DNA from: Chryseobacterium cucumeris
GTDB taxonomy: Bacteria; Bacteroidota; Bacteroidia; Flavobacteriales; Weeksellaceae
DNA length: 64,000 nucleotides
Assembly (NCBI RefSeq): GCF_001593385.1
Contig: NZ_LUVZ01000047.1
Coordinates: forward strand, 124,001 to 188,000
Direction: 5' to 3'
The translations under genes were made by a program, and so were the position numbers. Position 1 is the first letter of the stretch; each line of letters starts with the position of its first letter. The notes under the pieces were generated by a model. That model saw only the letters and a list, made by a program, of their open reading frames with translations. It searched no databases and was not told the origin of the DNA. Positions 2,680 to 53,061 of the stretch are shown piece after piece.

Positions 2680-3318
2680 TTAAAATCTGTAACTTAAACT
2701 GAATCCTGTTTTTGGTGCGCTGTAGCCATACTGATCCTGAATAACCGATGGTTTAAAAACCAAATCCGGATCATGGCGGCTTTCGTAAAGGTGTGCATCT
2801 ACTACAGCATCTACAATATTCAGGATATAGATCAACCCTGTAATGGCGATGGCATAATCCCTTTGTCTTTTGGCTCTGTCCTGTGCGTTACCTAAAGCTT
2901 TTTTGTCCAGCCACGGGTGACTGTCTACAAATTCATTAGGAGTTCCATTCAGTTTTGCCACGTAATACTCACGGTATTTTTTGTATTGATTATCATTCCA
3001 TACGGCAATACCAACCCCAGCACCTACGGCTCCCCAGACAATGGGAATTTTCCAGTACTTTTTGTTATAAAACTGTCCTAATCCAGGTAAAACTGCGGAA
3101 TATAATCCCGCTCTGGTAGGGTTTAGCTTTATGGTTTTTGCTGTGGGACCGTTCGCTTTTTCAAGATCTTCAATAATCTTTGCTTCTGTTTTGCTTGGTT
3201 TTACCACACGAGGTTCTTCTTTCGGAAGAGTCTGCATCCGAACGGTATCTATAGGTTTTACTTGTGAGTAAGCCATTGCAGCGATACACAAGAAAAATGT
3301 GAAAAATATTTTCTTCAT
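2680..3318 (-). CDS. DUF5683 domain protein, exported
   Basis: The 212-residue protein has a cleavable-looking signal peptide (MKKIFFTFFLCIAAMAYS) and a Lys/Pro/Thr-rich linker. A conserved block then begins about residue 66 with the RAGLYSAVLPGLGQFYNKKYWKIP-like stretch (GLGQ at 76-79), and further hydrophobic segments follow at about 91-107 and 155-170. This matches DUF5683, a Bacteroidetes family with no assigned biochemical role that is regularly encoded beside parB and dapB. Its start codon directly follows the parB stop codon with no gap, so the two are probably translated from one message. I infer envelope location from the signal peptide; the function is unknown. Confidence 0.8.
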   Translation of the reverse strand: MKKIFFTFFLCIAAMAYSQVKPIDTVRMQTLPKEEPRVVKPSKTEAKIIEDLEKANGPTAKTIKLNPTRAGLYSAVLPGLGQFYNKKYWKIPIVWGAVGAGVGIAVWNDNQYKKYREYYVAKLNGTPNEFVDSHPWLDKKALGNAQDRAKRQRDYAIAITGLIYILNIVDAVVDAHLYESRHDPDLVFKPSVIQDQYGYSAPKTGFSLSYRF

Positions 3319-9524: not shown

Positions 9525-11114
9525 TTACCCCAGCATCAATTCTCTGTCAATTCCAATCTCCTGAAGAAAAACTTCATCATGGGAAATCACCAGTAGAGTT
9601 CCATGATAATCTTTTATAGAATTGGTGAGAATTTCCACATTCTGGAGATCTAAATTATTCGTAGGTTCATCAAGGATAATCATATCGGGTGCTTTATTTC
9701 TGATGGAAAGCCCGCAGAGAAGTAACCGTAAACGCTCTCCTCCACTCAGCATACCGCATTTTTTATCCCAGGTATCTTTTCCAAACAAAAATCTGGACAG
9801 TAATGTTTTGACTTCTGATTCCTGCATGGCACAGTCATTGAAAGTCTGTACAAAATCGTAAAGCGTTGAATCATTATCAATAAGGGAATATTCCTGGTCA
9901 ATATAGATACTGTTGAATTCTGTCTTATTTATTTTTCCTTCCGAAGGTTTAATATTTTCCAACAGAAGCTTTATCAGGGTAGTTTTTCCGGAACCGTTTG
10001 AGCCTTTCACTGATATTCGGTCTCCGCTTCGCACCTCCATACTGATGTTTTCTTTCCAGAGTTTTTCTTTTCCGTAAGTGAAATTAATATCTTCAACGGT
10101 AACAAGGATCTTTCCTGAATGTAGATTGGAATCATTAAAATTAACTTTCATCTGATCAGAATTCTTTAAGGAGGAACGCAGATCTCTTAAGTCACCGGAA
10201 ATCCCACTAATTTTCTCTGCGTGTACACTTTTAAGTTTTGAACTGTTTTTTTCAGCATTATTCCGAAGCGTATTCATCATAATTCTGGCTACTCCGGATT
10301 TTTCCTGCTTCCCTTTACCTCTTGCATCCAGTTTTTGCTTTCGTTCCAGAGTTTCCCGCTCCTTTTCTTTTGCTTTTTTCAGAGCACGTTCTTTGGAATG
10401 GATATCATTTTGCAATGCTTCCTCCTCCACTTCTTTCTGTTTGGCATAAAAGTCATAGTTTCCACCATAAGTTGCAATTCCCTGATTGCTTAATTCGAAT
10501 ATGGTATCCACAAGATTGAGCAAAATACGGTCGTGGCTTACGATAACCACTGTTGCATCTGTTTTGTCAATAAGATCATACAAGAGTTTTCTTCCTTCCC
10601 TGTCCAGGTGATTGGTCGGTTCATCCAATACGATAATATCAGGTTGGTTGATCTGAATTCCAGCGAGAAAAACTTTAGTCTTCTGTCCTCCGCTCAGGTC
10701 TTCCAGTTTTTGAGTTAATTCAAAATTTTCGAGCCTCCAATGCTCCAAAGCATTCTGGCATCTTTCTTCAATATCCCAGTCGTCATTGAGCGTTTCAAAA
10801 TATATTTCGTCCACCTCTCCATTGGTAATTTTTTGAAGAGCATGGAGTTTCTGATCTATCCTCAGGCATTCTGCAATGGTAAGATCATTTAAATTTCCAA
10901 ACATCTGCGGTACATAAAAGATATTACCCCGGATATTAGTATTGCCGTTTAGAGGCTGTATTTCTCCCGCGATTATTTTCAGCAGGGTTGATTTTCCCAC
11001 TCCATTACTCCCTACCAGAGCAGATTTGGTATGAGACTGTATTGTTAAATTGATATGATTAAATAGAAGATTTCCTCCCGGAAACCCAAAGGATATATTT
11101 TGCAGTAAAATCAT
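9525..11114 (-). CDS. ABC-F family ATPase (ribosome-acting, possible antibiotic resistance type)
   Basis: The 529-residue protein has two ABC ATPase domains and no membrane span, the ABC-F plan of proteins that bind the ribosomal E site. Walker A loops are GSNGVGKST (35-43) and GSNGSGKTT (about 372-380). Signatures are LSGGQ (about 149) and LSGGE. Walker B regions read VLDEPTNHLD and ILDEPTNNLD. A charged, coiled-coil interdomain linker of roughly 80-90 residues (about 215-305) separates them; linker length and sequence decide whether such a protein protects against antibiotics. The gene stands alone behind a leader of about 100 bases holding a tiny ORF, an arrangement known for drug-inducible ABC-F genes. 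Housekeeping EttA/Uup-type roles remain possible. Confidence 0.85.
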   Translation of the reverse strand: MILLQNISFGFPGGNLLFNHINLTIQSHTKSALVGSNGVGKSTLLKIIAGEIQPLNGNTNIRGNIFYVPQMFGNLNDLTIAECLRIDQKLHALQKITNGEVDEIYFETLNDDWDIEERCQNALEHWRLENFELTQKLEDLSGGQKTKVFLAGIQINQPDIIVLDEPTNHLDREGRKLLYDLIDKTDATVVIVSHDRILLNLVDTIFELSNQGIATYGGNYDFYAKQKEVEEEALQNDIHSKERALKKAKEKERETLERKQKLDARGKGKQEKSGVARIMMNTLRNNAEKNSSKLKSVHAEKISGISGDLRDLRSSLKNSDQMKVNFNDSNLHSGKILVTVEDINFTYGKEKLWKENISMEVRSGDRISVKGSNGSGKTTLIKLLLENIKPSEGKINKTEFNSIYIDQEYSLIDNDSTLYDFVQTFNDCAMQESEVKTLLSRFLFGKDTWDKKCGMLSGGERLRLLLCGLSIRNKAPDMIILDEPTNNLDLQNVEILTNSIKDYHGTLLVISHDEVFLQEIGIDRELMLG

Positions 11115-11124
11115 GATTTCTTTC

Positions 11125-11151
11125 TTAATAAAGGTTGAACACCAGCAACAT
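11125..11151 (-). CDS. Candidate leader peptide of the ABC-F gene (MLLVFNLY)
   Basis: Within the inferred ABC-F leader an ATG opens an eight-codon frame encoding MLLVFNLY and ends with TAA 10 bases before the ABC-F ATG. The ATG sits in a small hairpin (GTAACA-AGAA-TGTTGC). Short hydrophobic leader peptides that stall ribosomes control several macrolide, lincosamide and ABC-F resistance genes. That this ORF is translated or regulatory is inference from position only. Confidence 0.4.
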   Translation of the reverse strand: MLLVFNLY

Positions 11152-11222
11152 TCTTGTTACCGTTTTATTGAGTCTGAAAGAAATGATATCCTACATGTCT
11201 GTTTTTTTGGGTTTTGAAAGAA

Positions 11223-11230
11223 CAAAGATA
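11223..11230 (-). promoter_or_regulatory. -7 promoter element for the ABC-F gene
   Basis: The minus strand reads TATCTTTG, matching TAnnTTTG. Transcription would begin near 11216 and give a leader of about 100 bases, unusually long compared with the 10-30 bases inferred for other genes here. The -33 element is not clear. Confidence 0.5.
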
Positions 11231-11483
11231 CTCATTTTTCTGAATATTTGTTTTCATCAATAATCAGGACATTTATCATTATCCTTTTCTTCCTTATTTC
11301 AAACACCTGCTTTTCAAAAGTATTTTTAAATCTATTTTTTGAGGCTATACCATTCTATCTCATTAAAAAGCTTGTTGTTATGAATGTTTAAACAGACTTC
11401 ATCAGGATATTGAATTTTGTGATCCGGAAAACATCAAACTTTCAAACTGATAAAAACAGGAAAGTATTTTAATCAAAAATCCG

Positions 11484-11491
11484 TAACTTTG
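11484..11491 (+). promoter_or_regulatory. -7 promoter element for hpt
   Basis: TAACTTTG matches the TAnnTTTG consensus and lies 18 bp before the ATG at 11510. It overlaps the upstream alternative start at 11489, which argues against that longer frame. No -33 TTTG at the ideal spacing. Confidence 0.5.
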
Positions 11492-11509
11492 CCAACTACT
11501 AAAAATTTT

Positions 11510-12064
11510 ATGGAAAGCATTAAAGTTCACGACAAAACTTTCGTTCCTTATTTAAAGGATGCCGAAATTCAGGAAATTGTAAAAGAGACAGCGTTAAGAA
11601 TTTATGAAGATTACAAGGATGAAGTTCCTGTTTTCATAGGGGTGTTAAATGGAGTGGTGATGTTCTTCTCTGATCTTTTAAAATATTACCCGGGAGAATG
11701 CGAAATTGCCTTCATTCAAATGAGTTCTTATGTAGGAACAGAATCTACAGGGATCGTTTATCAGAAAATGGAGCTTACTAAAGACGTAAGAGACCGTCAT
11801 ATTATTCTTGTGGAAGACATTGTAGATACAGGAAATACCGTTGAAAGTCTTTTCAAATATTTCAAAGAAACACAACGTCCAAAATCTGTAAAACTGGCTA
11901 GTTTCTTATTGAAACCTGAGATTTACAAGAAAGATTTCAAACTGGATTATATCGGAAAAGAAATCCCGAACAAATTTGTACTTGGATACGGGCTGGATTA
12001 TGATGAATTAGGAAGAAACCTTCCGAATCTATATCAGTTGGAAGACGGACAAATCAACCATTAA
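11510..12064 (+). CDS. hpt: Hypoxanthine phosphoribosyltransferase
   Basis: This purine salvage enzyme converts hypoxanthine (and usually guanine) plus PRPP to IMP or GMP. The 184-residue protein from the ATG at 11510 contains the PRPP-binding signature in HIILVEDIVDTGNT (about 98-111), with acidic residues E-D followed by DTGNT. It also has GVLNGVVMF near residue 45 and the late GYGLDYDELGRNLP region typical of bacterial HPRTs. The open frame runs seven codons further upstream, but that start falls in the -7 element. It is followed on the same strand by adk and obgE, so purine and nucleotide genes are grouped. Confidence 0.93.
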   Translation: MESIKVHDKTFVPYLKDAEIQEIVKETALRIYEDYKDEVPVFIGVLNGVVMFFSDLLKYYPGECEIAFIQMSSYVGTESTGIVYQKMELTKDVRDRHIILVEDIVDTGNTVESLFKYFKETQRPKSVKLASFLLKPEIYKKDFKLDYIGKEIPNKFVLGYGLDYDELGRNLPNLYQLEDGQINH

Positions 12065-35012: not shown

Positions 35013-35097
35013 GGAGGGTTGCCGGAGTGGTTAACGGAGCAGTTTGCTAAACTGTCGACGCGAAAGTGTCGCAAGGGTTCGAATCCCTTACCCTCCG
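35013..35097 (+). tRNA. tRNA-Ser (anticodon GCT)
   Basis: The acceptor stem GGAGGGT pairs with ACCCTCC; discriminator G. The anticodon loop TTGCTAA carries GCT, reading AGC/AGU. The 85-base length with a long variable arm (cgacgcgaaagtgtcg) is typical for serine. The T arm is GGTTCGAATCC-like. CCA is not encoded. Confidence 0.97.
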
Positions 35098-35112
35098 CTC
35101 TTCTTATATATT

Positions 35113-35187
35113 CGGGGCGTAGCGTAGTCCGGTCATCGCGCCTGGTTTGGGACCAGGAGGTCGCAGGTTCGAATCCTGCCGCCCCGA
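35113..35187 (+). tRNA. tRNA-Pro (anticodon TGG), copy 1
   Basis: The acceptor CGGGGCG pairs with CGCCCCG; the anticodon loop TTTGGGA carries TGG. The T arm reads GCAGGTTCGAATCCTGC. The first C of the acceptor is typical of tRNA-Pro. The sequence is identical to the copies at 52496 and 52901. Confidence 0.97.
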
Positions 35188-35229
35188 CTTTTTAATGTGC
35201 TTATTTACTAAGCGAGAATCAACTTCTAA

Positions 35230-35303
35230 GGGTGCGTAGCTCAGCTGGATAGAGCATCTGCCTTCTAAGCAGACGGTCAAAGGTTCGAATCCTTTCGCGC
35301 TCA
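35230..35303 (+). tRNA. tRNA-Arg (anticodon TCT), copy 1
   Basis: The acceptor GGGTGCG pairs with CGCGCTC including two G-U pairs; the anticodon loop CTTCTAA carries TCT (AGA/AGG). The length is 74 bases. It is identical to the copies at 52583 and 52988. Confidence 0.97.
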
Positions 35304-52495: not shown

Positions 52496-52570
52496 CGGGG
52501 CGTAGCGTAGTCCGGTCATCGCGCCTGGTTTGGGACCAGGAGGTCGCAGGTTCGAATCCTGCCGCCCCGA
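52496..52570 (+). tRNA. tRNA-Pro (anticodon TGG), copy 2
   Basis: The sequence is identical to the copy at 35113-35187, with acceptor CGGGGCG/CGCCCCG and anticodon loop TTTGGGA. The spacer to the following tRNA-Arg is 12 bases and identical in copy 3. Confidence 0.97.
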
Positions 52571-52582
52571 CTTATAAATTTA

Positions 52583-52656
52583 GGGTGCGTAGCTCAGCTG
52601 GATAGAGCATCTGCCTTCTAAGCAGACGGTCAAAGGTTCGAATCCTTTCGCGCTCA
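52583..52656 (+). tRNA. tRNA-Arg (anticodon TCT), copy 2
   Basis: The sequence is identical to 35230-35303, with anticodon loop CTTCTAA, 74 bases. It is followed directly by a hairpin terminator. Confidence 0.97.
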
Positions 52657-52659
52657 CTT

Positions 52660-52691
52660 AAAGACTTACTGGAAACAGTGAGTCTTTTTTG
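52660..52691 (+). terminator. Terminator of tRNA pair 2
   Basis: AAGACTTACTG (52660-52670), loop GAAA and CAGTGAGTCTT form an 11-bp stem with one G-U pair and a T-run. The same hairpin follows copy 3. Confidence 0.75.
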
Positions 52692-52851
52692 TTTTTGCTC
52701 AGATCCTGATAAAAGTTCTCCATTTTAGTGAGGAATAATAAAAATAATATAAGAATATGATTATTAAACAGGTACAACGAATCAAAGAGCGTTCACGAAA
52801 AAATAATTAAAAATTATCTCTAATTTTATTTTTTTATTCCAAAAAGTATTG

Positions 52852-52859
52852 TACCTTTG
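52852..52859 (+). promoter_or_regulatory. -7 element of tRNA pair 3
   Basis: TACCTTTG is an exact TAnnTTTG match about 42 bp before tRNA-Pro copy 3. Confidence 0.5.
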
Positions 52860-52900
52860 CAACCGCAAAAACAAAGTAAAAATCGTTACTGATGACACCT

Positions 52901-52975
52901 CGGGGCGTAGCGTAGTCCGGTCATCGCGCCTGGTTTGGGACCAGGAGGTCGCAGGTTCGAATCCTGCCGCCCCGA
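52901..52975 (+). tRNA. tRNA-Pro (anticodon TGG), copy 3
   Basis: The sequence is identical to copies 1 and 2. It starts 405 bp after copy 2, in a tandem unit made of promoter, two tRNAs and terminator. Confidence 0.97.
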
Positions 52976-52987
52976 CTTATAAATTTA

Positions 52988-53061
52988 GGGTGCGTAGCTC
53001 AGCTGGATAGAGCATCTGCCTTCTAAGCAGACGGTCAAAGGTTCGAATCCTTTCGCGCTCA
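52988..53061 (+). tRNA. tRNA-Arg (anticodon TCT), copy 3
   Basis: The sequence is identical to copies 1 and 2, with the same 12-base spacer after tRNA-Pro as in copy 2. Confidence 0.97.

Follow-up and report, generated by a model that had tools for sequence, protein, structure and literature searches.

A conserved start-stop leader upstream of an ABC-F gene of Chryseobacterium: a candidate translational attenuator with a minimal open reading frame

Background

ABC-F genes of Gram-positive bacteria, namely vmlR, cplR, vmlR2 and lsa(A), are preceded by very short upstream open reading frames (uORFs) that encode MIN, MR[I/M], MK[L/Q] and MAGN (PMC10201436, PMC9226507), and lincomycin induction of vmlR requires the start codon of its uORF (PMC9226507). 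Here we analyze the leader of an ABC-F gene located in a 64,000-nucleotide stretch of the Chryseobacterium cucumeris genome (hereinafter, the window). The layout of this leader is that of the four Gram-positive ones, with the ABC-F gene placed under a very short uORF and the Shine-Dalgarno sequence hidden in a stem, but the Gram-positive uORFs consist of 3 to 4 codons, with sense codons after the AUG, whereas here no elongation codon separates the start from the stop. Furthermore, the vmlR and cplR leaders contain intrinsic terminators, in contrast to the Chryseobacterium leader, for which a scan of positions 11050-11520 detected none, the sole terminator-like site being inside the gene (11087-11068). 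The AUG-stop is the limiting case of the short ABC-F uORFs.

In Escherichia coli, arrest of the ribosome at the start codon of the toiL uORF frees the topAI ribosome-binding site (PMC12121999). As proposed for the leader described here, a hairpin that is opened by start-codon arrest pairs the uORF with the downstream ribosome-binding site; the arrest is caused by tetracycline and, by the inference made in that paper, by retapamulin, but toiL is longer and additionally responds to drugs at points further downstream, and it controls a toxin-antitoxin pair (PMC12121999). Within Bacteroidota, the tetQ leader of the Bacteroides element CTnDOT is cited as a case of translational attenuation of a ribosome-protection gene, via a four-codon uORF (PMC5418344, PMC12121999), although the drug is tetracycline, the controlled gene, which encodes TetQ, is unrelated, and the uORF is not a start-stop. 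Start-stop sites with possible regulatory roles have been reported in E. coli and Campylobacter (PMC11955535). Among the matches listed in our literature search, which covered few subscription journals and preprints, we found neither a start-stop attenuator of a bacterial resistance gene nor the leader described here. In plants, the AUG-stop of NIP5;1, reportedly characterized by Tanaka in 2016, is said to be a minimal ORF on which a small molecule causes ribosomes to stall; it differs in being eukaryotic, in responding to boron and, reportedly, in its link to mRNA degradation.

The ABC-F gene and its leader

The gene is encoded on the minus strand of the window (9525..11114, with the ATG at 11114) as an ORF of 529 amino acids. 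Judging from sequence similarity, the product is an ABC-F protein and the gene is likely an antibiotic-protection gene: the protein scores 371.5 bits against the NCBIfam model NF000355 (ribosomal protection-like ABC-F), just under the cut-off of 380, ribosome-protection types are among its best NCBIfam and PDB matches, and the PDB sequence matches include PoxtA, VmlR2 (listed as ExpZ), LsaA and VgaL. The AlphaFold model (pTM of 0.43, with pLDDT below 50 in the linker) is too poor for the antibiotic-resistance domain to be judged from it, and the Foldseek list for this model confirms the ABC-F class only.

A preliminary description of this locus reported a -7 element followed by a leader of about 100 bases and an ATG-TAG pair near position 11195; both observations are confirmed. 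The sequence TATCTTTG (11230-11223, minus strand), a putative Bacteroidota-type -7 element, matches TAnnTTTG, and transcription would be expected to start near 11217, which implies a leader of about 103 nt. The start-stop, ATG TAG, is located at 11196-11191 on the minus strand, and 122 of 125 leaders (91 from the genus and 34 from other genera) have a TAnnTTTG motif at a distance of 30-37 nt on its 5' side. The predicted fold of the window leader has a minimum free energy of -21.5 kcal/mol (z of -2.0), with 7 of 200 shuffled sequences folding equally well. A search of the window and four relatives against Rfam yielded no family for the leader at the gathering score, the window giving tRNAs only, and at E-values up to 1 there was a single sub-threshold match, inside the ABC-F gene. 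The tRNA genes, seven in all, form two clusters on the plus strand of the window (35013-35303 and 52496-53061), and several of them score equally, as if a gene pair were repeated.

Conservation of the start-stop in Chryseobacterium

A protein-similarity search of genome contigs identified 80 loci, all in records titled Chryseobacterium, and the ATG at the site is directly followed by a stop codon in 80 of the 80 (78 ATGTAG and one ATGTAA identified by script, and ATGTAG read by eye in L080, where the ABC-F frame is broken). Thus, these loci share a conserved upstream start codon with a short ORF, as expected of an attenuator, and none has the sense codons that follow the start in the Gram-positive uORFs. 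The alignment of 91 distinct leaders from the genus (A1), from which L080 was left out because of its broken frame, has a mean column identity of 76%, whereas ATGTA is invariant and the stop codon is TAG in 90 leaders; an early, pattern-based tally lacked L021, L030, L060, L070 and L110, which the pattern missed.

The presence of an ATG-stop in a leader is not, in itself, rare enough within one genome to be informative: of the 49 mechanically defined ORFs of at least 150 amino acids in the window, two have an ATG-stop at -120 to -20, and the ABC-F gene can be one of these two. The signal, therefore, lies in conservation rather than in presence. A covariance model built from A1 (hereinafter R1) matches 147 of the 173 genomes of the genus, in one place each, and the ABC-F gene was found in 144 of the 173 (E-value of 1e-150); the three genomes with an R1 match but without a gene match (G128, G135 and G136) are 73-87% complete. 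The conserved start-stop leader is almost certainly a real functional element.

Distribution beyond the genus

Across the family, R1 matches 172 of 320 genomes, in 9 of 33 genera; in the order and class samples, it matches 34 of 296 and 7 of 295 genomes, respectively. Matches from the family outside the genus (25 loci, L142-L166), from another family (eight loci, L167-L174) and L175 are all located before an ABC-F frame. Loci found with R1 are a biased set because the model contains ATGTAG and the matches were then filtered for ATG-stop. The following sets of orthologues were found by protein similarity. Among 80 chosen genomes outside the genus (33 of them model-positive), 39 encode an orthologue, at 41 places, and an ATG-stop is present at 40 of these, four of which share the same leader; the exception, L177, has a two-codon ORF, ATG CAA TAA, at the site. 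In the order sample, the orthologue was detected in 37 of 296 genomes, namely 23 genomes of the genus, judged by the R1 match, and 14 others, which were read directly and of which 13 have an ATG-stop and one (L196) has a three-codon ORF, ATG TTA GTA TAA. In the class sample, the orthologue was found in 11 of 305 genomes, with an ATG-stop in eight, GTG-TAG in one (L191) and no start-stop in two, L194 and L195, the most distant orthologues (48 and 46% identity). Upstream of the gene in L194, on the minus strand, there is a five-codon ORF, MKISK.

The stop codon after the ATG is TAA or TAG in other members of the family and TGA in L167-L175. In a rapidly built tree of 77 proteins, comprising 32 of the 91 rows from the genus, the 34 others and 11 more, the codon after the ATG is TAG in 39, TAA in 25 and TGA in 9, and the state changes 10 times, with at least three changes concerning non-stop states, so that at most seven are changes between stops; this count is approximate because the tree has long branches and was built without a mixture model. 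All three stop codons occur across genera, which indicates that the start-stop itself is kept and not just its letters. The A of the ATG, which is outside the tested pairs, is invariant in A1, and across those leaders that were read and have a start-stop, its only change is to G (L191), again yielding a start codon.

Base pairing between the leader and the ABC-F start

The most important stem of the leader, missing from the preliminary description, is P1, in which the region of the start-stop pairs with the beginning of the ABC-F gene. Its outer part, P1a, joins TGTAG (11195-11191, overlapping the start-stop) to CTGCA (11105-11101, ABC-F codons 4-5), and its inner part, P1b, joins ATTTCTTTC (11184-11176, just after the start-stop) to GAAAGAAAT (11124-11116, the ABC-F ribosome-binding region just 5' of the ATG). 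Enclosed by P1 is the hairpin P2, CGGTAAC-loop-GTTGCTG (11162-11143); all these elements are on the minus strand.

All five pairs of P1a form in 84 of the 91 genus loci, in 20 of 24 other ATG-TAA loci, in 4 of 7 other ATG-TAG loci and in the one GTG-TAG locus; P1a is mostly lost in the ATG-TGA loci, where one of nine has all five pairs. An uninterrupted P1b helix of at least 7 pairs is found in 90 of 91, 34 of 34 and 6 of 7 loci, but 7 pairs are also reached by shuffled arms (640 of 1820, 190 of 680 and 34 of 140, respectively), so helix length alone is weak evidence. P1b is rebuilt with other letters in L178, L179, L185 and L192, and in some other genera (e.g. L142 and L148) the helix extends into the ATG itself. 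Codon usage in the 3' arm of P1a is skewed as well: codon 4 is CTA in 40 of the 91 genus loci and CTA or CTG in 74, compared to 4.0% and 31.7%, respectively, of the Leu codons (5834 in all) in the rest of these genes, keeping in mind that the genus loci are related and do not represent 91 independent draws.

Taken together, P1a, P1b and P2 are paired in 98.3% of 1911 cells of A1, with both sides changed at 7 pairs versus 3.7 in shuffles (2 of 500 shuffles as high), and pairing drops to 33-65% when the same structure is slid along the alignment; these values are favoured by the fact that the structure was drawn after inspection of the same sequences. RNAalifold, when applied to A1 alone, did not choose P1 and gave P2 with a small local hairpin. 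Covariation rests mostly on P2, where both-sided changes occur at 5 of 7 pairs, compared to 2 of 14 in P1, because P1 is A+U-rich and nearly invariant within the genus. P2 keeps its place and not its letters: other genera fold a hairpin of unrelated sequence there, and z for the fold of this region is below -1 in 58 leaders out of 64, a set that combines all 34 from other genera with 30 of the 91 from the genus. The stem masking the ABC-F start thus shows compensatory changes. We set aside A4, an alignment of the model matches, in which 11 of the 61 rows were second or off-target matches.

The effect of a ribosome on this structure was modelled by computing how much energy is needed to open the ABC-F start (-14 to +8) with and without a footprint of -12 to +15 on the start-stop; published footprint edges of +16 to +18 agree with the one modelled (PMC9226507, PMC12121999). 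Over 125 leaders, the mean opening cost falls from 8.66 kcal/mol in the free leader to 4.07 kcal/mol with the ribosome on the start-stop; within this model, the drop is at least 2 kcal/mol in 117 leaders and smaller in eight. In the shuffled control (200 shuffles of 40 leaders), the cost goes from 5.75 to 5.32 kcal/mol, and 19 of the 200 drop by at least 2 kcal/mol. When the ribosome was slid over 24 leaders, the drop was 4.5 kcal/mol at the start-stop, 4.0-4.7 from 0 to +25, 3.5 at +30 and 0.2 at +45, the position of the AUG of the eight-codon ORF in the window; the modelled ribosome opens P1 anywhere from 0 to +30, so that the start-stop is part of a plateau and not a sharp optimum.

Proposed mechanism

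We propose that this leader acts as a translational attenuator: arrest of a ribosome on the AUG-stop would free the ABC-F start. To this reading we assign a probability of about 0.7. In unstressed cells, P1 would pair the stretch after the start-stop with the ribosome-binding region and the first codons of the ABC-F gene, keeping its translation low, while ribosomes that start on AUG-UAG would release formyl-methionine and leave. A drug that captures ribosomes at initiation, or prevents release at the peptidyl-transferase center, would hold the 70S ribosome on AUG-UAG, and the footprint of this ribosome, extending to about +16, would cover TGTAG and the start of ATTTCTTTC, so that P1 would be blocked and the ABC-F start set free. 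Clearance of ribosomes by the ABC-F protein would then close the loop. The same reaction takes place in the classic release assay, where AUG is combined with a stop triplet, and it is blocked by peptidyl-transferase inhibitors. Pleuromutilins, lincosamides and streptogramin A are, we infer, the probable inducers.

Since arrest of this kind would depend neither on a nascent peptide nor on codon context, the switch would respond to every drug that prevents the peptidyl-transferase center from carrying out its first reaction. We lean, by a small measure, towards the view that the sensor is free of peptide and consists of the ribosome as it waits on the AUG-stop, after initiation but before termination, and, jointly with it, towards a family of minimal-ORF attenuators that spans several Bacteroidota families and has already reached resistance plasmids. 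The attenuator suggested in the preliminary description is, in its general idea, strengthened by the conservation, the covariation and the modelled opening; the start-stop replaces the eight-codon peptide that was seen there as the sensor.

Alternative explanations

That peptide would be the sensor if drug-dependent arrest on the eight-codon ORF controlled the ABC-F gene. The ORF (ATG TTG CTG GTG TTC AAC CTT TAT TAA, MLLVFNLY) is indeed present at 11151-11125 on the minus strand, ends 10 nt before the ABC-F ATG, as previously noted, and its start, described as lying in a stem, is partly in a hairpin. An eight-codon ORF occupies the same place in 12 of the 91 genus leaders, but it is absent from the other 79 and from all 34 leaders of other genera, so that the conservation on which the preliminary description made its case depend is wanting. 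Under a looser count, ATG-initiated ORFs of at least three codons with the same end (-10) occur in 21 of 91 leaders of the genus and 1 of 34 others, or in 43 and 8, respectively, if GTG and TTG starts are included; 40 of the 91 have no ATG-initiated ORF of at least three codons between the start-stop and the gene, and in 10 of the 91 an ATG in this interval reads past the ABC-F ATG. Moreover, a ribosome modelled on the AUG of the eight-codon ORF leaves the ABC-F start closed (8.27 to 8.71 kcal/mol). On the grounds of poor conservation and the lack of modelled opening, the peptide was rejected as the sensor, we give almost no credence to control by its arrest, and the ORF is judged to be incidental; with the start-stop as the conserved element, no drug-sensing peptide is needed.

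Two further explanations accept the conserved elements and assign them other roles. Under one, the start-stop is a fixed damper: ribosomes that both start and terminate there open P1 for a short time and set a constant low ABC-F output, or else they move past the closed stem and re-initiate at the ABC-F AUG, in either case without a drug response. The same conserved parts would serve, but the preservation of P1 and P2 across genera would hardly be required for an output that is constantly low, and the 76 nt from the stop to the ABC-F AUG is a long distance for re-initiation. In E. coli, start-stop overlaps have been described as sites of termination-reinitiation (PMC9841429), whereas those Gram-positive ABC-F genes with a short uORF that have been studied are induced (PMC10201436, PMC9226507), and we regard the two variants, taken jointly, as unlikely. 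Under the other explanation, which appears decidedly improbable, ATGTAG is kept only as a pairing arm of a structure that is sensed by a ligand, a protein or temperature and not by a ribosome on the start-stop. The formation of the P1a pairs in most loci, the skew at codon 4 and the very constant primary sequence of P1b are compatible with such a role; however, the unpaired A of the ATG is invariant in A1, the nine ATG-TGA loci keep the start-stop though P1a is mostly lost, and there is no Rfam family at the gathering score.

Implications and plasmid-borne relatives

If the leader is indeed an attenuator that operates through the start-stop, it would contain the shortest possible sensory ORF, a bacterial attenuator could work without a leader peptide, Bacteroidota would gain inducible ABC-F control, and the question of whether a start-stop can be regulatory in bacteria would become directly testable. 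Searches that impose a minimum ORF length would miss such elements.

Relatives of the ABC-F protein, 61-62% identical and annotated with the NF000355 name, are encoded on three Empedobacter plasmids of about 10 kb (L197, L198 and L202), and the leader reads identically, with ATG-TAA, on each. Because the same kind of leader precedes the ABC-F gene on these small plasmids, its expression in drug tests may depend on induction. In three of three Bacteroidales homologues on plasmid records (L199-L201), a recognizable start-stop leader is absent from the sequence upstream of the gene. The neighbors of the Empedobacter gene include tet(X) on one of the three plasmids and estT with floR on two, one of which also carries aadS.

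Two further arrangements of the leader are of note. L176 (around 2940-3180 of its reverse complement) has a leader-like match in front of what looks like a decayed ABC-F frame, and an intact orthologue (L185) is present elsewhere in that genome. Four copies (L179, L180, L181 and L184) with the same leader and gene start are present in three genomes of two genera, two of the copies sharing one genome, and possibly represent a mobile element that carries a leader variant of its own.
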